Source of the DNA: JBFLXN01 sp040755715 [NCBI: Candidatus Edwardsbacteria bacterium]
Lineage (GTDB): Bacteria; Edwardsbacteria; AC1; JBFLXN01
NCBI GenBank assembly: GCA_040755715.1
Contig: JBFLXN010000118.1
Location: forward strand, 1 to 8,601
DNA: 8,601 nt
Direction: 5' to 3'
Both the position numbers and the translations under genes were made by a program. The first letter of the stretch is position 1, and every line of letters begins with the position of its first letter. Positions 121 to 8,492 of this stretch are shown piece after piece. Under the pieces are notes generated by a model. The model did no database searches. It was not told the origin of the DNA and saw nothing but the letters and a program-made list of their open reading frames with translations.

Positions 121-876
121 AGCCCCGGATTTTTTACTTCTATTAGTTCCGAGACCAAAGTCTGGGAAATTGAAGGAGTTCGGGTTCTATATCCGAATGG
201 TGGTGAGACCTTTCAACCAGCAACACAAGAGACAATAAAGTGGCAAAAATTTACCCCACCTGGTGCAGATTCATTTGAAGTTTTAATTTCTTATGACAAT
301 GGCGCAAGTTTTTCTTCTGTGGTCAGTGGACTGCTGACCGTGGACTCTTCTTTTGTCTGGACTGTTCCCGATAGTTCATCAGATTCTTGCTTAATAAAGG
401 TAATTGCCTACAGCCCACCTGGATTTCTCTGGGATGAATCGGATGGAGTGTTCAAGATTAGCGCTGTGGGAGTGGAAGAAACTTCAGTTCATAGTTCAAA
501 GTTCATAGTTCATAGTAAGTTGTATCAAAACCAGCCGAATCCGTTTACTGAAAGCACGGAGATAAGGTATCAGATAGCAGATAACAGATTACAGATGACA
601 GATAAACCGTCATCAGTTATCAGTCATCAGTCATCGGTCAGTTTGAAAATCTACAATGTAGCGGGGCAATTGGTGAAGACATTGGTGAATGAGGTAACCC
701 CTCCCTTCCCTCCCCTAACCCCGACCTCACCCTCCCCTCAAGGGGAGGGAAGAGTGAGGTCGGTGGTATGGGACGGGAGAGATGAGAGTGGAAAGCCGGT
801 AGCACCTGGCGTATATTTTTATCGATTAAAGGCTGGTGATTTCACGGATACGAAGAAGATGGTGTTGTCGCGGTAG
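121..876 (+). CDS. C-terminal part of a secreted Ig-like protein with a type IX-like sorting domain (5' truncated)
   Basis: The open frame runs from just after a TGA at 118-120 to TAG at 874-876 (251 residues). The first usable start is GTG 319, which would cut through a domain, so this is probably the 3' part of a broken gene. Residues about 20-115 form an Ig/fibronectin-like module of the Ser/Thr-rich PNGGE type (VLYPNGGETFQP, IKWQKF, VLISYDNGASF, FVWTVPD). The last about 115 residues match the FlgD-like/T9SS type A C-terminal sorting domain: LYQNQPNPFTESTEIRYQI, LKIYNVAGQLVKTLVNE, VVWDGRDESGKPVAPGVYFY and GDFTDTKKMVLSR. Known members of this family are exported, with the C-terminal domain directing outer-membrane translocation. 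Three repeat-derived in-frame segments interrupt it: VHSSKFIVHS before the domain, ADNRLQMTDKPSSVISHQSSV inside a loop region, and the Pro-rich TPPFPPLTPTSPSPQGEG. Passenger function is unknown. It may be a pseudogene or still translated from an unseen start. Confidence 0.7.
   Translation, partial: SPGFFTSISSETKVWEIEGVRVLYPNGGETFQPATQETIKWQKFTPPGADSFEVLISYDNGASFSSVVSGLLTVDSSFVWTVPDSSSDSCLIKVIAYSPPGFLWDESDGVFKISAVGVEETSVHSSKFIVHSKLYQNQPNPFTESTEIRYQIADNRLQMTDKPSSVISHQSSVSLKIYNVAGQLVKTLVNEVTPPFPPLTPTSPSPQGEGRVRSVVWDGRDESGKPVAPGVYFYRLKAGDFTDTKKMVLSR
485..516 (+). repeat. GTTCATA periodic repeat inside the secreted gene
   Basis: The block is built from GTTCATA / GTTCAAA units repeated four times. 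It is read in frame as VHSSKFIVHS, in the linker between the Ig-like module and the sorting domain. It does not match the family consensus there, so I read it as repeat DNA taken into the coding sequence. Confidence 0.6.
568..640 (+). repeat. CAGATA / CATCAGT periodic repeats inside the sorting domain
   Basis: The first half (about 570-603) repeats CAGAT-A-NN units: CAGATAG, CAGATAA, CAGATTA, CAGATGA, CAGATAA. The second half (about 609-640) repeats TCATCAGT / TATCAGT / TCATCAGT / TCATCGGT. Both are open in the gene's frame. They separate IRYQI from SLKIYNVAG, two strands that in this domain family normally lie a few residues apart. Confidence 0.6.
700..763 (+). repeat. C/T-rich palindromic repeat inside the sorting domain
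   Basis: Polypyrimidine DNA (CCCTCCC / CCCCTAACC) leads into an inverted repeat: left arm 721-738 (CCGACCTCA + CCCTCCCCT), right arm 741-749 (AGGGGAGGG) plus 755-763 (TGAGGTCGG), with a 5-nt bulge at 750-754 and a 2-nt loop. It stays in frame and adds a Pro/Ser-rich loop between LVNE and VVWDGRDE. It could form an 18-bp stem in the mRNA. Confidence 0.7.
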
Positions 877-2769: not shown

Positions 2770-2779
2770 AAGATAGTCA

Positions 2780-2835
2780 ACCACAGATTAACACAGATTT
2801 TTAACCACGATTACACAGATGGGAAAATCTGTAAC
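2780..2835 (-). repeat. ACCACAGATTA periodic repeat upstream of acetyltransferase copy 2
   Basis: The plus strand reads CCACAGATTA-ACACAGATTT-TTAACCACGATTA-CACAGAT, then AATCTGT (2826-2832) as a partial inverted copy. The core AGATT recurs at roughly 10-nt steps in a CCAC/ACAC frame. It ends 11 nt from the acetyltransferase start codon. The rest of the gap to the nitrilase stop holds a small stem GCAAG-ttaac-CTTGC (2842-2856). Confidence 0.65.
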
Positions 2836-2882
2836 CAGACTGCAAGTTAACCTTGCTTCTCGCACAGCTGTAGTCAGATGTT

Positions 2883-3680
2883 TCACACTGTAATTCGCTG
2901 ATAAAATCTTACTCTTCTGTCTTTGAAAATATCATTATATTCTGTGATTTTTTTGTTTAACGCCAATGCCGAGTCAATATCAATTACTTTAACTATTTCT
3001 GCCCGACTATTAGTCTTTGCCAAAACTTGTCCTTGAGGGTCAACAATTTGGCTCTTCCCAGTGAATTTGAGACTCTGTCCTCCTCTTCTTTCAGAGCTCG
3101 TTCTATTAGCAGTAATAACGAAGACTCTATTTTCAATAGCCCTGGTTATCATCGCCTTCTGACAATAGGGTAAGACAAGATTGGCAGGATGACAAATAAT
3201 TTGTGCCCCTTTGAGGGTTAAAACTCGTATCGCTTCGGGAAAAATCCAGTCAAAACAAATGACGATGCCAATTTTTGTAGAACCTATCTGGAAGACGGCA
3301 AATGGTTTATCACCGGGAGTAAACAAAAACCTCTCTTTATAAAAAAGATGTATCTTGCGATAGGTTTTTACTTCACCTTTAGAAGAAACCAAAATCGCCG
3401 AATTGAAAAATTTGTTGCCCCTTCTTTCGGCTAATCCCGCCACTAAATTTAATCTTTGGCTTTTTGCAAGATTCAAAAGTGCTTCTGTGGTGGGTCCCTC
3501 TGGAATCTCCTCGGAGAATTTGGCTAACTCATCCTTTGAATAAAAAAGATAACCTGTATTAAAGAGTTCTGGCAAAACAACTAAATCAGCTCTGATAGAT
3601 TTGAGCAGGTGTTTGACTTTTTTAAGATTTTCTTCTTTCTCTCCAAATTTGGGGCAGAACTGCAAAAAGCCGATTCTCAC
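2883..3680 (-). CDS. Carbon-nitrogen hydrolase (nitrilase superfamily)
   Basis: The 265-residue protein has the full catalytic set of the nitrilase/amidase superfamily: Glu38 in VVLPELFNTGY, Lys109 in YRKIHLF, the second conserved Glu116 in YKERFLFTPGD, and nucleophile Cys142 in IGIVICFDWIFPEA. The family hydrolyses non-peptide C-N bonds (amides, carbamoyl amines, sometimes nitriles) through a Cys thioester. Length and the EL-FNTGY / ICFDW-FPE motifs fit cytoplasmic omega-amidase, carbamoylputrescine amidase or ureidopropionase-like branches, but the substrate cannot be told from sequence alone. The start is GTG 3680 (MRIGFLQF), with AAGAGG about 10 nt upstream. The gene begins 28 nt after the rsmG stop, consistent with co-transcription. 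There is no signal peptide or membrane segment. Confidence 0.88.
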   Translation of the reverse strand: MRIGFLQFCPKFGEKEENLKKVKHLLKSIRADLVVLPELFNTGYLFYSKDELAKFSEEIPEGPTTEALLNLAKSQRLNLVAGLAERRGNKFFNSAILVSSKGEVKTYRKIHLFYKERFLFTPGDKPFAVFQIGSTKIGIVICFDWIFPEAIRVLTLKGAQIICHPANLVLPYCQKAMITRAIENRVFVITANRTSSERRGGQSLKFTGKSQIVDPQGQVLAKTNSRAEIVKVIDIDSALALNKKITEYNDIFKDRRVRFYQRITV

Positions 3681-3708
3681 CTAGGAAATACCTCTTTTAG
3701 CCAAAGTT

Positions 3709-4386
3709 TCATCTCTTTTTGATTAGCAAAAGAATTCTGGGGCTTTCAGCAATCGGCAGGGTTATTTTAATTTCCTCTTTAACTAGACCGTTTAACCTTT
3801 TCAAAACTGCTGTTGCTTGTTTGATTTCTTCTCTTATCTTGTCTGTCTTGTAGGCAATTAGAATTCCTTCTCCTCTTAAAAGAGGGAATGACCATTTCAA
3901 AAGTTCTTTAAGTTTTGCTACCGCCCGAGCTAGGGCAAAATCATATTGTCCCCGATAATTTTGGTTTTTCAAAAATTCTTCCGCCCGCAGATTGATAACT
4001 TCTACATTCTGCAAATTCAAATGTTTCACGATGTATTCCAAAAACTTTGCCTTCTTAGTAATAGATTCCAATAAGGTTAGATGTATTTCCGGGCAGGCAA
4101 TTTTTAAGGGGATGCCGGGCAATCCACCACCACTACCAATGTCAATTACCTTTGGCTCAAAAATTTTCTCTGCTATCCACTGCCTAAGATATCGTAAGGC
4201 ACTGAGTGAGTCAAGAAAATGATGAGGAATTAGGTTTTTTATATCACGACGGGAGATGAGATTGATTTGTTTATTCCATTCCCTCAGTTCCTTGGCATAC
4301 TCAAGAAAGAGCTCAATTTGCTCAGGAGTCAAGTAGATTTGGAGAAGATTTATTCCACTAATGAGTTCGTCTCTTTCATTTGGCAT
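3709..4386 (-). CDS. rsmG: 16S rRNA (guanine-527-N7)-methyltransferase RsmG
   Basis: The 225-residue protein (family usually about 205-240) is the GidB/RsmG methyltransferase, which uses S-adenosylmethionine to methylate N7 of G527 in the 530 loop of 16S rRNA; in other bacteria its loss gives low-level streptomycin resistance. Diagnostic segments in order are WNKQINLIS (37-45), HHFLDSL (55-61), SAM motif I DIGSGGGLPGIPLKI (82-96), TLLESITKKAKFL (104-116), ALARAVAKLKELL (151-163) and a C-terminal strand RILLLIKKR. ATG 4386 has no good Shine-Dalgarno but lies 10 nt past a strong -10 box, which predicts a 5' leader of about 4 nt. It is first in a minus-strand series with the nitrilase-like gene. 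It has no adjacent gidA/parA/parB, unlike the classic chromosomal context. Confidence 0.95.
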   Translation of the reverse strand: MPNERDELISGINLLQIYLTPEQIELFLEYAKELREWNKQINLISRRDIKNLIPHHFLDSLSALRYLRQWIAEKIFEPKVIDIGSGGGLPGIPLKIACPEIHLTLLESITKKAKFLEYIVKHLNLQNVEVINLRAEEFLKNQNYRGQYDFALARAVAKLKELLKWSFPLLRGEGILIAYKTDKIREEIKQATAVLKRLNGLVKEEIKITLPIAESPRILLLIKKR

Positions 4387-4396
4387 TTTGCCTTAT

Positions 4397-4425
4397 ATTT
4401 TATCAAAAAATAGGGAAAAAGTCAA
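4397..4425 (-). promoter_or_regulatory. Sigma70-type promoter of rsmG
   Basis: On the minus strand, TTGACT (4425-4420) is separated by 17 nt from TAAAAT (4402-4397). Each box is 5/6 consensus at ideal spacing, and the spacer is T-rich. The predicted transcription start near 4390 is only about 4 nt before the rsmG ATG, implying a leaderless or nearly leaderless mRNA. Confidence 0.7.
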
Positions 4426-4442
4426 AAGATTTCTTGGGAGCA
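4426..4442 (+). repeat. Left target-site duplication of the insertion sequence
   Basis: AAGATTTCTTGGGAGCA directly precedes the left inverted repeat and matches the 17 nt after the right end (5860-5876, AAGATCTCTTGGGAACA) at 15 of 17 positions. It is also immediately upstream of the rsmG -35 box. Confidence 0.8.
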
Positions 4443-4494
4443 TGTTATTGTAAAGCCATAATGTCCCCTATAACTGTAAAGCTATAATGTCCCC
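4443..4494 (+). repeat. Left terminal inverted repeat with two tandem subunits
   Basis: Two copies of (A)YTGTAAAGC-YATAATGTCCCC lie 25 nt apart, with TGTAAAG starting at 4450 and 4475. The outer copy matches the right end perfectly over its 26 nt. The repeated subunit is a likely pair of transposase binding sites. Confidence 0.8.
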
Positions 4495-4604
4495 TTGTTG
4501 AGAAAGAAGTTGGTTTTGATTTTGTGGGGGCCGAGGTTTGATTTTCTGTTTGTTTCGTGGTATCTTTGTCCCGTCGTCAAACCATAACCATAGGAGGAAC
4601 AATT

Positions 4605-5810
4605 ATGCCACAAAATAAACCCTATTCACAAAAAGTCCTCAAGCGTTATCACATTCTTACCCTAACCGCTAACTTTAAGCTCACTCTTAAAGAATCAGTC
4701 CAACAAATAGGGCTTTCCTACCGCCAAATAAAAAGACTCTTTAGACGATTTATTAACAGTGGCAGAAAAATCGAAAGTCTCCTCTCTAAGAAGGTCGCCT
4801 GGAATAAATTGGACAAATCCAGCCGCCAGAAAATTATTGAACTTCATCACCAATATCCAGATTTTAATAATTGCCACCTAGCAGACCTCTTCACAGAGGA
4901 AACCGGCAAGAAAATTAGTCACAATACCGTCAGAAATATCTTTATCGAACAAAACCTCTACCAGCCGCGATTCAAGAAACATAGACCCCGTAAACGCTTC
5001 GAAATGCAATCCTTCGGACAACTTATCCAACTTGATACTTCTGAACACCAGTGGATACCTACCGTAGAGAAAGAATTACCCCTCATTGTTGCTATTGACG
5101 ACTTCTCCCGTGACCCACTCATTGCTTTCATATTTGAACACGATACCACCTGGAACAACATGAAAGTCGTTAGACTGCTGATAGAAAGATATGGACTCCC
5201 AGAAGCAATCTATACCGATAACGATTCTATCTTTAAGTATATCCGCTCAGATGACCCATTGCATGTGAAATATCATAAAGACCAAGAGGATGTGACTACA
5301 CAATTTGAAAGAGCGCTAGAGGAAATCGGTATAACTCTAATACGTCACAAACCATTTCAACCACAGGCAAAAGGTAAACTCGAACGATTCTTCAGATTCT
5401 TACAAGACCGCTTTGTCAATGAACTAAAAAGATATAAACTACCAAAAGAAACGCATCTCGCTATTAAATTCGCTAATAAAGTGCTCTTCAAATACCTCCA
5501 CTGGTGGAGAAATAATCATGTCCATTCAATTACTAAATGCAAGCCCATTGACAGACATGTCCCCTCAGTTTTTGAGCCTCTCCCAAAAGATATCAATTTA
5601 GACGACATATTTTGCTACAAATGGGAAAGAACGGTGAAAAATGATAATACTTTTCAATTTGGCAACAAGACTTATCAATTAACTCAGTTTATCAACAAAA
5701 GAAGTCGGCCCTACGGCAGAATCACTTTGCATGTTCTGCCTGGCAAATGGATTAGAGTTTTCTATGACAACAAGTTTGTTCAGCAATTTCCCTATCGCAA
5801 AGATATATAG
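4605..5810 (+). CDS. DDE transposase of the insertion sequence
   Basis: The 401-residue protein starts at ATG 4605, set by AGGAGG (4592-4597) 7 nt upstream; a GTG 48 nt earlier has no ribosome site. The N-terminal helix-turn-helix is about residues 24-50 (LKESVQQIGLSYRQIKRLFRRF), and a second DNA-binding region with NTVRNIFIEQ and a basic stretch KKHRPRKR runs to 131. The RNase H-like integrase core carries Asp144 (QLDTSEHQW), Asp205 (IYTDNDSIF) and Glu260 (QAKGKLERFF), with AIDDFSRDPLIAF between. The C-terminal about 60 residues form a beta-rich domain (TFQFGNKTYQL, RITLHVLPGKWIRVFYD). The length exceeds IS481 transposases (about 300) and fits the ISNCY/IS1202 style. The TAG stop shares its G with the right inverted repeat. 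No frameshift is seen, so the protein is probably active. Confidence 0.9.
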   Translation: MPQNKPYSQKVLKRYHILTLTANFKLTLKESVQQIGLSYRQIKRLFRRFINSGRKIESLLSKKVAWNKLDKSSRQKIIELHHQYPDFNNCHLADLFTEETGKKISHNTVRNIFIEQNLYQPRFKKHRPRKRFEMQSFGQLIQLDTSEHQWIPTVEKELPLIVAIDDFSRDPLIAFIFEHDTTWNNMKVVRLLIERYGLPEAIYTDNDSIFKYIRSDDPLHVKYHKDQEDVTTQFERALEEIGITLIRHKPFQPQAKGKLERFFRFLQDRFVNELKRYKLPKETHLAIKFANKVLFKYLHWWRNNHVHSITKCKPIDRHVPSVFEPLPKDINLDDIFCYKWERTVKNDNTFQFGNKTYQLTQFINKRSRPYGRITLHVLPGKWIRVFYDNKFVQQFPYRKDI

Positions 5811-5859
5811 GGGACATTTGGCTTTACAGTTAAGGGGACATTATGGCTTTACAATAACA
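5810..5859 (-). repeat. Right terminal inverted repeat with two tandem subunits
   Basis: GGGGACATTTGGCTTTACAG (5810-5829) and GGGGACATTATGGCTTTACA (5834-5853, ending ...CAATAACA at 5859) are inverted copies of the left subunits. They are again 25 nt apart (CTTTACA at 5822 and 5847). The inner copy is one base shorter than on the left. Confidence 0.8.
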
Positions 5860-5876
5860 AAGATCTCTTGGGAACA
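5860..5876 (+). repeat. Right target-site duplication of the insertion sequence
   Basis: AAGATCTCTTGGGAACA directly follows the right inverted repeat. It differs from the left copy by one T/C and one G/A change, both transitions. Confidence 0.8.
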
Positions 5877-5880
5877 AAAA

Positions 5881-5906
5881 TAGGGGCGTATAGCTGTACG
5901 CCCCTA
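5881..5906 (-). terminator. Perfect 10-bp hairpin with T-tracts on both sides
   Basis: TAGGGGCGTA and TACGCCCCTA pair perfectly around a 6-nt loop. On the minus strand a run of five T (5880-5876) follows at once, the form of an intrinsic terminator for the minus-strand remnant that stops at 5933. On the plus strand TTGTTTTTTT begins 4 nt after the stem and could end transcripts leaving the transposase. GGGGCGTAT...ATACGCCCC palindromes also occur as dispersed repeats in other bacteria, so dual origin is possible. Confidence 0.6.
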
Positions 5907-5932
5907 CAAATTGTTTTTTTCGTCACAGTCTA

Positions 5933-6100
5933 TCAGGTCTCACTTAACCAGTCTTTAATTCTCTGTTTTGATAACATTTTTACTCCGTACGCGACCATTG
6001 CCAAAGTAGAGACAGCCCAAACAAAAACCTTATGGAGGTAGAAACCACTTCTTACAACATAGTTGGGTAAAAGAAGAGAAAGATAGCAAGGAAAGTATAA
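5933..6100 (-). pseudogene. Membrane-protein remnant (C-terminal about 55 residues)
   Basis: The minus-strand frame is open from 6157 to TGA (5935-5933). Its last 55 codons before the stop look coding: LYFPCYLSLLLPNYVV, then a transmembrane-like YLHKVFVWAVSTLAMVAYG, then a basic tail KMLSKQRIKDWLSET. The only ATG with coding sense (5998) would leave 21 residues; no start with a ribosome site exists further up, where the frame runs into an inverted repeat. A terminator-like hairpin follows 26 nt after the stop, as expected for a real gene end. The PCYLSLLLPNY segment faintly recalls CcdA-like membrane proteins, but this is too short to name. Most likely the 3' end of a gene lost when the repeat arrived. 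Confidence 0.4.
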
Positions 6101-6190
6101 ACCACTGAGGACACTGAAATCACTGAAGAGTTTTTTAATCCAAAGATAAAGAAGATCTTATTTTTCTGTGCATTCAGTGTATTCAGTGGT
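6101..6190. repeat. ACCACTGA periodic inverted repeat
   Basis: Left arm ACCACTGAGGACACTGAAAT-CACTGA (6101-6126); right arm TGTGCATTCAGTGTATTCAG-TGGT (6167-6190). The right arm's complement, ACCACTGAATACACTGAATG..., matches the left with a few changes. CACTGA recurs at 9-nt steps. The arms enclose about 40 nt of AT-rich DNA, and the element ends 15 nt before the kinase -35 box. Confidence 0.7.
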
Positions 6191-6204
6191 GGACAGGATT
6201 TTTC

Positions 6205-6234
6205 TTGACAAGGGCAACTCTAGTTTGGTAAAAT
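6205..6234 (+). promoter_or_regulatory. Sigma70-type promoter of the histidine kinase gene
   Basis: TTGACA (6205-6210, full consensus) is followed after 18 nt by TAAAAT (6229-6234). Seven bases (ATAAACA) then lead to ATG 6242. With the usual -10 to start distance, transcription begins at about 6241, so the mRNA would be leaderless. There is no Shine-Dalgarno. Confidence 0.7.
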
Positions 6235-6241
6235 ATAAACA

Positions 6242-7909
6242 ATGACTCAAAAGAAACTATTGTGCTGGCAGTTTAAGAATTGTTCTCGCACTGATTGCCC
6301 TGCCTATGGCAGAGATGACTGTTGCTGTTGGCTAATTGGCGGAACCCTCTGTGGCAATGGGAAAAGCCACAGTTTGCGTCAAAAAATCAAAGAATGTTGT
6401 CGTGAATGTGATTTTTTTCTACAAATGATTCAACGTGCCACCGGAAGAAGAGAAGTTGAAAAAGTAATCATTAATACTTTGGATATATTTCTTGAGGAAC
6501 TAACTGCCTCTGAAAATGAACTCACTCAGACCAATCAGCAACTCAAAGAAAGATTAGAAGATTTAACCATACTTGATGAAGTAACCAAGACTTTACAAAA
6601 GACACTTCAACTGGACCAGGTCTTCCACATCATTTTAACTGGAATGACTGCTCGTCAAGCCTTGGGCTTAAATCGTGCCTTTCTATGCTTAATCAATGAA
6701 AAGGAAAATGTCTTGGAAGGGAAAAAGGCAGTTGGCCCTTCTTCGGGTGAAGAAGCCTCTAAAATCTGGAAAGAATTAGAAACTTCTCCACGCACCTTTG
6801 AACAGTTAGCCTTCAATCCGGAAAGCGAAAGTGCCAATAAAGCTGTTAATGAATTGGTAAGGAAGATTAGGATTCCACTTTCTCTGCCCGAGGGCGGAAT
6901 TTTTGCTAGGACCGTCTTAGAAAAGAAATCATTTAATATCAAAGATGCTGAAAAGGAGGCAAATTTTTGTCCCCTCTTATGTCAACTCTTGGGCTCCACT
7001 TCTTTTGCCTTAGTCCCTCTTGTCTATGAGGAGAAACCACTTGGGCTTCTGATAGCAGATAATCTCTTTAGTGGTCGTTCTATCACTAATGATGATATTA
7101 GTTTAATGGAGATTTATGCCGGCCAGGTAAGTTCAGCCATCAGAAATGCTCAACTTTATGAATCACTTCAGAATAAAATCAAGGAACTTGAAGCCACCCA
7201 GGAACTTTTAGTCAAAACTGAAAAGATAGCGGCGGTTGGAGAAATGGCACAAAGTTTAGCCCATGAAATTCGGAATCCTTTAGTCTCTATCGGCGGATTT
7301 GTTCGCTCTATCTATAAAGAAACTCCTTTAGAAAATCCAAACAGAAAATATCTGGGGATTGTCCTACGAGAAGTAGAACGTCTGGAAGAAACCCTTGATG
7401 ATATTTTCCGTTATACTTCTTCCATTAAACCAGAAATGCAAGAGGAAAATCTAAATGAAATTATTGAAGAAGCTATTCTCCTTTTGGAACCGGAAATGCA
7501 AGCCAAGGGAATTAAGACTCATCTGGAGATAGATTTTTCTTTACCAAAAATCTGGTTTGACACACATCAACTCCGCCATGTATTCTTGAACCTCTTCAAG
7601 AATTCTATCCATGCGATGTCTAAAGGAGGAGAACTTTTCATAAAAAACCACCAGCACAAGAATTTTGTGGAAATAGAAATTTCTGACACGGGCACTGGAA
7701 TTTCTCAAGAAGACTTGAACAAAATTTTTACTCCCTATTATACCACTAAGAGAGGCGGGGTAGGATTGGGATTAGCCATCAGCCATCAAGTGGTACAAAA
7801 TCATGGTGGCTCAATTGAAGTAAAGAGCGAGAAGGAAGGGGGCACAACCTTTCTCATCAGATTGCCATTTGAAAAGCGAAAGACATCTTCTAAAGAGCAA
7901 AATGTTTGA
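6242..7909 (+). CDS. Cytoplasmic sensor histidine kinase with Cys-rich N-terminus and GAF-like domain
   Basis: The 555-residue kinase has no membrane segment. Residues 1-60 hold ten cysteines (8, 14, 19, 27, 28, 29, 37, 52, 53, 56) in the pattern CWQFKNC...CPAYGRDDCCCW...GTLCG...CCRECDFF. This resembles the 'two-CW' Cys-rich module found before sensors and chemoreceptors, a plausible metal or redox site. A coiled coil (about 72-120) leads to a GAF-like domain (about 120-302; ARQALGLNRAFLCLIN, FALVPLVYEEKPLGLLIADN, GQVSSAIRNAQLYE), then a second coiled coil. The dimerisation/phosphoacceptor domain has His341 in SLAHEIRNPLVSIGGF. The ATPase domain shows the N-box NLFKNSIHAM (Asn454), G1 DTGTGI (482-487), F-box FTPYYTTKRGG and G2 GVGLGLAI (506-513). 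All key residues are present, in the style of NtrB/AtoS-like kinases. Its partner is probably the receiver protein 126 nt downstream. Confidence 0.93.
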   Translation: MTQKKLLCWQFKNCSRTDCPAYGRDDCCCWLIGGTLCGNGKSHSLRQKIKECCRECDFFLQMIQRATGRREVEKVIINTLDIFLEELTASENELTQTNQQLKERLEDLTILDEVTKTLQKTLQLDQVFHIILTGMTARQALGLNRAFLCLINEKENVLEGKKAVGPSSGEEASKIWKELETSPRTFEQLAFNPESESANKAVNELVRKIRIPLSLPEGGIFARTVLEKKSFNIKDAEKEANFCPLLCQLLGSTSFALVPLVYEEKPLGLLIADNLFSGRSITNDDISLMEIYAGQVSSAIRNAQLYESLQNKIKELEATQELLVKTEKIAAVGEMAQSLAHEIRNPLVSIGGFVRSIYKETPLENPNRKYLGIVLREVERLEETLDDIFRYTSSIKPEMQEENLNEIIEEAILLLEPEMQAKGIKTHLEIDFSLPKIWFDTHQLRHVFLNLFKNSIHAMSKGGELFIKNHQHKNFVEIEISDTGTGISQEDLNKIFTPYYTTKRGGVGLGLAISHQVVQNHGGSIEVKSEKEGGTTFLIRLPFEKRKTSSKEQNV

Positions 7910-7918
7910 TTACATTCA

Positions 7919-7937
7919 CCCCGGCATATCGTCGGGG
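7919..7937 (+). terminator. CCCCG/CGGGG hairpin after the kinase gene
   Basis: CCCCG-N9-CGGGG starts 9 nt after the kinase stop. No U-tract follows, so it may attenuate or separate kinase and receiver messages, or be a copy of the short GC palindromes seen at 1126-1138 and 1455-1471. Confidence 0.3.
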
Positions 7938-7953
7938 CAGGAATCATAAAGGC

Positions 7954-8010
7954 AGATTACACAGATTATTTCTTTAATCGGTATAATCTCTTTAAGAAAT
8001 CTGCGCAATC
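7954..8010. repeat. Inverted AGATTACACAGATT repeat enclosing a consensus -10 box
   Basis: GATTACACAGATT (7955-7967) pairs imperfectly with AATCTGCGCAATC (7998-8010): 11 of 13 positions match, and the other two can form G-T pairs. The loop contains TATAAT (7982-7987). A transcript starting from that box would begin near 7994, inside the second arm. No -35 at 16-19 nt is recognisable, so promoter activity is uncertain. Confidence 0.55.
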
Positions 8011-8035
8011 AGAAGTTATAAAAAGGAGAAATCAA

Positions 8036-8395
8036 ATGAAAAAAATATTGGTGGTGGATGACGAAAAAAATATTTGTCTGCTTTATAACAAAGAATTCTC
8101 AGCCGAGGGTTATGAAGTCATTACCGCTACGGAAATATCTGAAGCCGAAAAATTGTTCTTTGAAGGAGGGGTAAACTTAGTTATTTTGGATATTAAACTA
8201 ACAGAAGATAAAGACGGCGGGCTGGAGCTTCTTCGCAAAATGCGAGAAAAAGATAAAACCGTGCCAATCATTCTCAACACCGCCTATCCCTCTTATAAGG
8301 CGGAATTCTCTACTTGGTTAGCTGACGCCTATATCATCAAGTCAGGTAACTTAGCTGAATTGAAGACAAAAGTGAAGGAATTGTTGAGAAAATAA
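8036..8395 (+). CDS. Single-domain response regulator (receiver only)
   Basis: The 119-residue protein consists of one receiver domain and nothing else. It has the acidic pair Asp8-Asp9 (ILVVDDEKN), phospho-acceptor Asp52 (LVILDIKL), switch Thr82 (ILNTAYPSYK) and Lys102 (AYIIKSGNLAEL), all at the expected spacing. With no output domain it must work by protein contact or phosphotransfer, like CheY or Spo0F. AAAAGGAG lies 7 nt before ATG 8036, a strong ribosome site that contrasts with the leaderless kinase gene. The partner is probably the kinase just upstream. The A-D-A-Y-x-x-K-S-x-x-L-x-E-L-K ending is typical of a group of stand-alone receivers in poorly studied phyla. The target is unknown. 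Confidence 0.93.
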   Translation: MKKILVVDDEKNICLLYNKEFSAEGYEVITATEISEAEKLFFEGGVNLVILDIKLTEDKDGGLELLRKMREKDKTVPIILNTAYPSYKAEFSTWLADAYIIKSGNLAELKTKVKELLRK

Positions 8396-8403
8396 ACTTA
8401 CTA

Positions 8404-8492
8404 AACCGAATAAAACGAATGCCCATTTATTCATTGTTAATCCTCTGCCTCAAGGGAATAAAAAAATTCGTTAAATTCGTGTTAATTCGTGG
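8404..8492. repeat. CACGAATTAACACGAATTTAACG periodic inverted repeat
   Basis: Left arm AACCGAATAAAACGAAT (8404-8420). Right arm, read on the minus strand from 8492, is CCACGAATTAACACGAATTT, then AACGAAT. Core GAATT recurs at 10-nt steps in the same CCAC/ACAC frame as the AGATT and TGAAT repeats elsewhere in the window. It starts 9 nt after the receiver stop. Confidence 0.65.

Follow-up and report, generated by a model that had tools for sequence, protein, structure and literature searches.

An 8,601-nt contig of Candidatus Edwardsbacteria (JBFLXN010000118.1, assembly GCA_040755715.1), referred to here as the window, carries short strings of the form CCAC-core-ACAC-core, in which the core is exchanged and the frame around it is kept. 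We propose that these strings are the terminal inverted arrays (arms) of small mobile elements that encode a GxxExxY protein, and from the sequence comparisons described below we put the probability of this at roughly 0.6. All comparisons were made in genomes other than the window's own, and the window arrays are placed in the GxxExxY-element family because of the common frame. Searches of the window for GxxExxY and for the four-helix-bundle protein IVP (PF05635) found no remnant of either (best E 2.7 and 0.6, respectively), and its copies are thus all derivatives without the gene. Most likely the window holds gene-less arms of GxxExxY elements together with arrays of the type seen at IVP genes.

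Word arrays and GxxExxY genes

An exact scan of genome_contigs with CCACNRATTWACACNRATT, in which both cores were left unconstrained, gave at least 118 loci. The matches listed covered 26 named phyla, with 8 loci left unassigned, and 6 loci were archaeal; part of this spread may be due to chance, above all the single matches inside open reading frames (ORFs). Among the same matches listed, the commonest same-core pairs were AGATT/AGATT (33), GAATT/GAATT (13) and GGATT/GGATT (12), and the commonest mixed pair was AGATT/GGATT (14). From the matched loci we picked 23 genomes because they were array-bearing, and 118 Bacteroidota genomes served as an unselected check. In the 23 array-chosen genomes the core-free pattern CCACN6ACACN7CAC matched 967 times compared to 86 times for the reversed pattern, and 43 of these 86 control matches came from genome G001 and 23 from G006.

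The original prediction proposed to test for one dominant core at each locus, for inverted pairing and for position relative to genes, and the matched loci show words that dominate per genome, inverted pairing and intergenic placement. Words at the listed places are genome-specific (AGATT in G010, GAAG/AAAG in G022, GAAA/GAAC plus AGATG in G003). An inverted partner, with at most 1 mismatch and within 200 nt downstream, was found for 47 of 121 anchors compared to 120 of 2660 random stretches. Only 15 of 133 anchors lie inside an ORF of at least 120 aa, while 78% of random positions do.

We tested IVP and GxxExxY as candidate neighbour families. GxxExxY (PF13366) was found in 20 of the 23 array-bearing genomes and 3 of 14 named controls, and IVP in 21 of the 23 and none of the 14. 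Our sample of GxxExxY genes comprised 63 of 111 PF13366 matches (30 loci and a further 33, the remainder being mostly partial), 14 of the 21 in a second list, and 29 loci of the unselected set; a home-made GxxExxY profile excluded loci L165, L167 and L168. We found that 56 of these 106 genes have arrays of C[AG]C words, with a pitch of 8–11 nt, inverted in both flanks, and that 83 have such an array in at least one flank. No both-flank arrays were observed at 30 GNAT, 30 Y1_Tnp or 30 IVP genes, or in shuffled flanks (Fisher test, 2e-19). We also compared each upstream flank with the reversed downstream flank by Smith-Waterman local alignment, scoring inverted similarity at 14 or above. This similarity was present at 78 of 106 GxxExxY genes (21/30, 38/47 and 19/29, the last set drawn from genomes not selected for arrays), 28/30 IVP genes, 13/30 Y1_Tnp genes and 1/30 GNAT genes. 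The single GNAT gene, L180, has arrays of ACAGGAT-type words on both sides, and therefore other genes may at times sit between such arms.

In an arm, a single short word made up of C[AG]C and a purine-rich core occurs at least twice, at a pitch of 8–10 nt with free linkers, and the outer edge of the arm often reads (A)ACC[AG]C. The words recur at roughly one helical turn, with an identity of 0.42 at lag 10 and 0.37 at lag 9. The 56 elements with arms detected on both sides have a median size of 475 nt (range 408–777). Their two arms share the top word in 39 of the 56, compared to 13% by random pairing, and the first spacing is identical between arms in 93% compared to 41%. Both arms usually carry the same word and can therefore pair, which would fold the element into a segmented hairpin.

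IVP genes, of which a genome may have up to 30, are flanked differently. At the 30 loci sampled from a longer list (L119–L148), the inverted flanks are mostly arrays of 7-nt words, and their pitch shows at lags 7 and 14, as opposed to lag 10 for GxxExxY arms. The presence of C[AG]C arrays at GxxExxY genes but not at IVP, GNAT or Y1_Tnp genes, together with the differing pitch, identifies the CCAC family of the window with the GxxExxY arm type. IVP genes appear to constitute a parallel class of elements. In otherwise gene-less arrays at L052, L053 and L073 we found a C-terminal scrap of GxxExxY between or beside the arms, and a GxxExxY trace of any kind, full or scrap, is present in 6 of 133 anchor windows compared to 2 of 664 control windows.

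The GxxExxY ORF (PF13366/TIGR04256) encodes a single domain of 120–130 aa. In 29 of 29 sequences the G-x-x-E-x-x-Y motif, D63, E73-x-K75, Q87 and N104-F105 are invariant. Weak likeness in Pfam and PHROGs was to Cas4 (15/29) and phage endonuclease I (7/29), and also to endonuclease and RecE-like families; a sequence search of the PDB gave no convincing relative (two matches, E 0.35 and 0.83). An AlphaFold model reached a mean confidence (pLDDT) of 88.4 and a predicted TM score (pTM) of 0.81, with two of five models at 85 or above; it came from a rerun of the same three sequences with a different one first, the earlier order having given a pLDDT of 46. The closest Foldseek match was SSO0001 (E 7.3e-5), which we take to be a Cas4 protein, followed by the LHK and lambda exonucleases. 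By VIA, SSO0001 had a Z of 9.8 (99 aligned residues, root-mean-square deviation 3.5) and Hjc a Z of 7.9 (84 aligned, 2.8), where values below 8 may reflect a common arrangement only. Based on the D...ExK motif and the modelled fold, GxxExxY is predicted to be a PD-(D/E)XK nuclease.

The original prediction took the strings for half-sites one helical turn apart for a DNA-binding or transposing protein, with cores that switch specificity. The pitch of about 10 nt, the mobility described below and the companion with a nuclease fold partly support the first part. A core set by the specificity of the protein found no support. On a 55-tip GxxExxY tree the arm word changes at least 27 times, compared to a mean of 36.7 and a minimum of 32 in 200 shuffles; the words are clustered and far from fixed, and so many changes indicate that the word is not determined by the protein.

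Copies, empty sites and gene loss in other genomes

Two genomes contain similar GxxExxY elements at different sites. Three copies in G018 (L152, L256 and L258) are 88–91% alike across 425–447 nt, and G014 has two such pairs, L155/L174 (91% across 465 nt) and L265/L266 (93% across 646 nt). In three of four groups, those of G018 and G014, the likeness ends at the outer arm edges (AACCGC...GCGGTT, GGACGC...GCGTCC and AGCCAC...GTGGCT). The genes of a pair in G016 (L163/L177) are 82% alike and their arms are spelled in different words, which we read as an exchange of words. We looked for target-site duplication and did not detect it: among the 56 elements, all from other genomes, 4 are bordered by a direct repeat of at least 6 nt, compared to 8% by random pairing.

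Empty sites in close strains had been named in the original prediction as a sign of mobility, and we found them in Flavobacterium. Flavobacterium sp. CF108 has seven GxxExxY elements between housekeeping genes, which were named from their translations without a family search. At thiG/thiH both flanks were obtained at 28 of 30 loci; 9 of these 28 congeners have the gene, 13 have another short insert and 6 are empty, with a gap of at most 29 nt. Words of the C[AG]CAAAG type make up 11 of the 13 short inserts, and two consist of other palindromes. At asnS/rpoN, where 30 of 60 matching genomes were read, the gene is present in 8 and absent from 22. On the flank tree this distribution implies no fewer than 8 changes, and well-supported branches force 6 of these. 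Species whose left flanks there are 92–96% identical have hairpins of different words. A third site is empty in one species (25 nt, G086), holds a single hairpin in another, and in two holds a second hairpin nested in the loop of the first. For this nested-hairpin comparison (site S1) the mispaired loci L421, L428 and L430 were dropped, and in G041 the site is occupied by 1.2 kb of other DNA.

Scattered across Flavobacterium are gene-less hairpins, about 110 nt long, that have the same ends as the thiG/thiH element and an asymmetric 3' arm. This family and the thiG/thiH element thus have their ends in common, as a miniature inverted-repeat transposable element (MITE) has with its gene-bearing relative. 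We aligned 15 gene-less copies; they were chosen by their outer words, and the invariance of the outer 9 columns is a consequence of that choice. Their inner words have a pair identity of about 0.90 (column mean), compared to 0.57 for the linkers, and no compensatory change was seen among the 15. At the sequence level, these other genomes show gene and arms duplicated as a unit, presence and absence at single sites, loss of the gene and fast turnover of words.

Proposed mechanism and competing explanations

We suggest that a full element is an arm, a GxxExxY ORF and an inverted arm, and that miniature or solo copies lack the gene. The nuclease would be produced via read-through from the host operon and would cleave the hairpin or cruciform. 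Copies would then integrate either between genes, in DNA rich in A and T, or within the loops of similar hairpins, and gene-less copies might be mobilised in trans. Recognition would rely mostly on layout, that is on pitch, pairing and CAC edges, and words could in consequence be swapped between lineages. A wider proposal, which we consider less likely than not, is that these elements form a mobile-element superfamily of their own, new to science: a small Cas4/Hjc-like nuclease would read the layout of a hairpin instead of a fixed end sequence, lineages would respell the ends, and gene-less offspring would make up a large class of intergenic repeats in many phyla; IVP elements would be a parallel 7-nt superfamily, with the intervening sequences (IVS) of 23S rRNA as its rRNA-borne members. 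Mobile-element ends that change their spelling but keep their layout would be unusual. NCBIfam names both the GxxExxY and the IVP family without a function, and the tie of the 10-nt class to the one and of the 7-nt class to the other gives both a likely context. It also names a candidate enzyme and provides testable units in cultivable Flavobacterium.

Several observations weigh against the proposal that the strings are arms of GxxExxY elements. Our detector found both flanks free of arrays at 23 of the 106 GxxExxY genes, and an array in a single flank at 27 more. A full GxxExxY gene stands next to only 3 of 133 pattern anchors, which belong to the elements L018 and L081, and in G010 and G003 the words of the gene-bearing arms differ from the commonest gene-less word listed. 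The expected excess of the frame failed in the 118 unselected Bacteroidota, where the strict three-unit form occurs 63 times compared to 76 for its reverse; GxxExxY was found in 60 of these genomes, and abundance of the strict frame is therefore patchy. At asnS/rpoN the gene looks like a single old insertion that was lost repeatedly, rather than many insertions, and nearly all gene-less species keep some hairpin, which may point to a function at the site. The conservation of inner words in the dispersed Flavobacterium family suggests that the word itself may be read as well as the layout. Orientation does not help: where the neighbouring genes are parallel, GxxExxY lies in sense 81 times and in antisense twice (IVP 17/2, Y1_Tnp 11/3, GNAT 17/1), and since a native gene such as GNAT is also sense-biased this proves nothing. 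The bias fits read-through expression, without proving oriented insertion. Among 23 gene-less hairpins, 8 were sense and 4 antisense between parallel genes, 5 lay between convergent genes and none between divergent ones, numbers too small to interpret.

The main rival is that GxxExxY is a passenger, the hairpins being moved or copied by another enzyme in trans or by template switching during replication, with nuclease and IVP genes caught inside. The scarcity of full genes beside the arrays, the possible divergence of gene-bearing arm words from a genome's commonest words, the nesting of hairpins within hairpins, and the comparable architectures around two unrelated families speak for this. 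However, the arm frame is specific to the gene, 10 nt for GxxExxY and 7 nt for IVP, with no C[AG]C arrays at any of the 30 IVP genes, which is unlike random capture. Moreover, the catalytic residues are invariant, gene and arms duplicate together, and the gene scraps in gene-less copies indicate loss rather than capture. We consider the passenger explanation unlikely. Somewhat less likely still is that these are host hairpins, acting in transcript ends, stability or processing and kept by selection at operon junctions, with words rewritten locally without mobility. The intergenic placement and the asnS/rpoN site, with its hairpin of changing spelling between closely similar left flanks, agree with such a role; orthologous sites that are empty at thiG/thiH and in G086, dispersed families with common ends and an asymmetric 3' arm, and duplicates within one genome do not. 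A terminator role in the window was rejected, as none of its seven terminator-like sites coincides with an array. Solo arms that do not fold also speak against host hairpins.

We also considered palindromes of the repetitive extragenic palindrome (REP) type, mobilised by Y1 transposases (REP-associated tyrosine transposases, RAYT, or IS200). Y1_Tnp genes are present in 20 of the 23 array-bearing genomes, the hairpins are short and intergenic, and target duplication was not detected. However, arrays were found in both flanks of 0/30 Y1_Tnp genes and in either flank of 1/30, the inverted flanks that were inspected are palindromes of other kinds, and in the genomes without a Y1_Tnp match the frame and its control gave 14 and 0 (G015), 58 and 43 (G001) and 0 and 1 (G019). 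A RAYT/REP origin was rejected on these grounds, and we hold it to be very improbable. The Y1_Tnp genes at L215, L230, L231 and others of L209–L238 have palindromes of their own in their inverted flanks, as RAYT genes with REP elements would. A likeness due to chance or low complexity of AT-rich DNA, to which the lack of a strict-frame excess in the unselected Bacteroidota might be ascribed, is practically negligible given the association with a gene, the excess in the array-chosen genomes and that in the window, which refutes chance there (see below).

The GxxExxY elements, as we propose them, resemble known systems in part. REP elements with RAYT are short intergenic hairpins in many copies, with gene-bearing and gene-less forms; the likeness lies in these features, and the difference in that Y1 genes lack the arrays described here. 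As with MITEs, gene-less copies share the ends of the gene-bearing element and some retain a scrap of the gene. Unlike MITEs and insertion sequences, the GxxExxY unit has no transposase and no detected target-site duplication, its ends vary from copy to copy, and beside the PF13366/TIGR04256 ORF a unit of 408–777 nt has little further room. The protein is like Cas4, lambda exonuclease and archaeal Hjc in its fold and its D...ExK...QxxxY residues; it differs as a small single domain with a motif of its own, and the likeness is limited to the fold. Rickettsia palindromic elements are palindromic repeats that can be part of an ORF without breaking its frame, and the 7-nt arrays within an FlgD-like ORF of the window resemble them in this; we know of no link between them and GxxExxY or word exchange. 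The IVS of 23S rRNA, as described in passages of PMC4990558, is a short ORF in an inverted-repeat hairpin, in Coxiella with a 28-bp stem, 428 nt long and excised by RNase III. The IVP class encodes the same family, PF05635, between inverted arrays. By contrast, an IVS lies in rRNA, while the window has its CCAC arrays in the gaps between protein-coding genes and no Rfam match, and the CCAC class encodes GxxExxY and has arms made of copy-specific word arrays.

In the literature searched, with subscription journals mostly outside, we found no explanation for iterated-word hairpins, which are present in intergenic DNA of many uncultivated genomes and some cultured ones. Searching by repeat strings gave nothing relevant among the best 30 of 405 results, and the passages retrieved by domain accession (including PMC10053308, PMC10910872 and PMC11637426) likewise contained nothing relevant. 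In a passage of PMC8934634 'GxxExxY' is a pipeline label beside a reverse transcriptase, and one of PMC10053308 likens PF05635 to Avd.

Carriage by phages was considered and rejected, with 46 stretches in viral_contigs compared to at least 118 in genome_contigs, two collections that are unequal in size. A protein scan and an alignment scan of viral_contigs gave no confirmed match to GxxExxY. The array pattern occurs 16 times in one 'viral' contig, IMGVR_UViG_3300031885_000054 (L359, L365), which is perhaps a piece of chromosome.

Arrays and other features of the window

The strings named in the original prediction were located to within 1 nt, with cores as it described them. CCACAGATTAACACAGATT starts at 2781, ACCACTGAATACACTGAATG is the complement of 6171–6190, the complement of 8472–8492 opens with CCACGAATTAACACGAATT, and the shorter copy claimed at 7956–7967 is present as ATTACACAGATT. 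A further frame, CCACGATTACACAGAT, lies at 2805 directly after the first. The predicted excess over background was confirmed: the window has 5 matches to CCACN4-6ACAC, whereas 200 dinucleotide-shuffled versions average 0.23 and never reach 5. Arrays of C[AG]C words at 8–11 nt pitch are likewise present, and the chain detector found 4 chains compared to 0.17 in 100 block shuffles (maximum 2). The degenerate arm at 7951–7967 was missed by both the CCACN4-6ACAC search and the chain detector.

The claim that most of the strings occur as inverted pairs was not upheld, since among the four places only 6098–6191 is a clear inverted pair, a strong hairpin (z -5.0) with three words in each arm. At 2779–2832 there is a tandem pair, and the fold (z -3.0) merely connects ACAGATTTTT with AAAATCTGT. 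Pairing at 7951–8013 is weak, an alternative fold being favoured (z -3.15), and the solo arm at 8464–8492 forms no hairpin (z +0.68). The arrays are intergenic, lying between nitrilase and GNAT genes, between an insertion sequence and a histidine kinase, between the kinase and a response regulator, and 3' of the response regulator. For the first of these the choice of GNAT start matters: with the ATG at 2769 the array is intergenic, and with the listed GTG at 2784 the two overlap by a few bases.

Table 1. Word arrays and hairpins of the window, with positions counted from its first nucleotide.
Feature	Position	Strand	Remarks
Tandem pair of gene-less arms, AACCACAGATTAACACAGATT and AACCACGATTACACAGAT	2779–2820	+	Between co-directional nitrilase (2883–3680, -) and GNAT (2233–2784, -)
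Left arm of gene-less hairpin element	6100–6130	+	Words CACTGAG, CACTGAA, CACTGAA
Right arm of gene-less hairpin element	6163–6190	-	Words CACTGAA, CACTGAA, CACAGAA; hairpin with 6100–6130, z -5.0
Short degenerate arm, GGCAGATTACACAGATT	7951–7967	+	Between histidine kinase (end 7909) and response regulator (start 8036)
Degenerate partner, TCTGATTGCGCAGATTT	7997–8013	-	Judged by eye; fold calculation favours another structure
Solo arm, CCACGAATTAACACGAATTTAACGAATTT	8464–8492	-	3' of response regulator (stop 8395); without hairpin
7-nt word array, GTTCATA/GTTCAAA	481–525		Same kind brackets IVP (four-helix-bundle) genes elsewhere
7-nt word hairpin, AGATNAC with inverted ATCAGTY words	559–644		IVP type, z -3.75; in frame within FlgD-like ORF

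A promoter role for the arrays was rejected, as the window has 23 promoter-like sites compared to 19.1 in shuffles, which is no excess. One such site (7958–7987) overlaps the degenerate arm at 7951–7967, and another (6205–6234) sits behind the hairpin. A known RNA was likewise rejected, with no Rfam match in the window at the gathering threshold.

Other iterated-word and palindromic features are also present. In an ORF for a secreted FlgD_ig-like protein (319–876), the 7-nt hairpin listed in Table 1 and a C-rich palindrome (702–782) lie in frame and are translated as protein. Two more intergenic hairpins of iterated words are found at 998–1125 (ATCAAAA type) and 2090–2200 (CGCTATC/CGCTTTC type), with a z of -3.9 each. 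An ISNCY/IS481-like insertion sequence occupies 4443–5859, with perfect inverted repeats of 27 nt and a transposase (rve) at 4557–5810 that matches NCBIfam transpos_ISNCY_2 below the cut-off. It is bordered by an imperfect direct repeat of 17 nt, AAGATTTCTTGGGAGCA at 4426–4442 and AAGATCTCTTGGGAACA at 5860–5876. Directly behind it, at 5881–5907, lies the palindrome TAGGGGCGTATAGCTGTACGCCCCTA, a string that is presumably frequent in environmental genomes.

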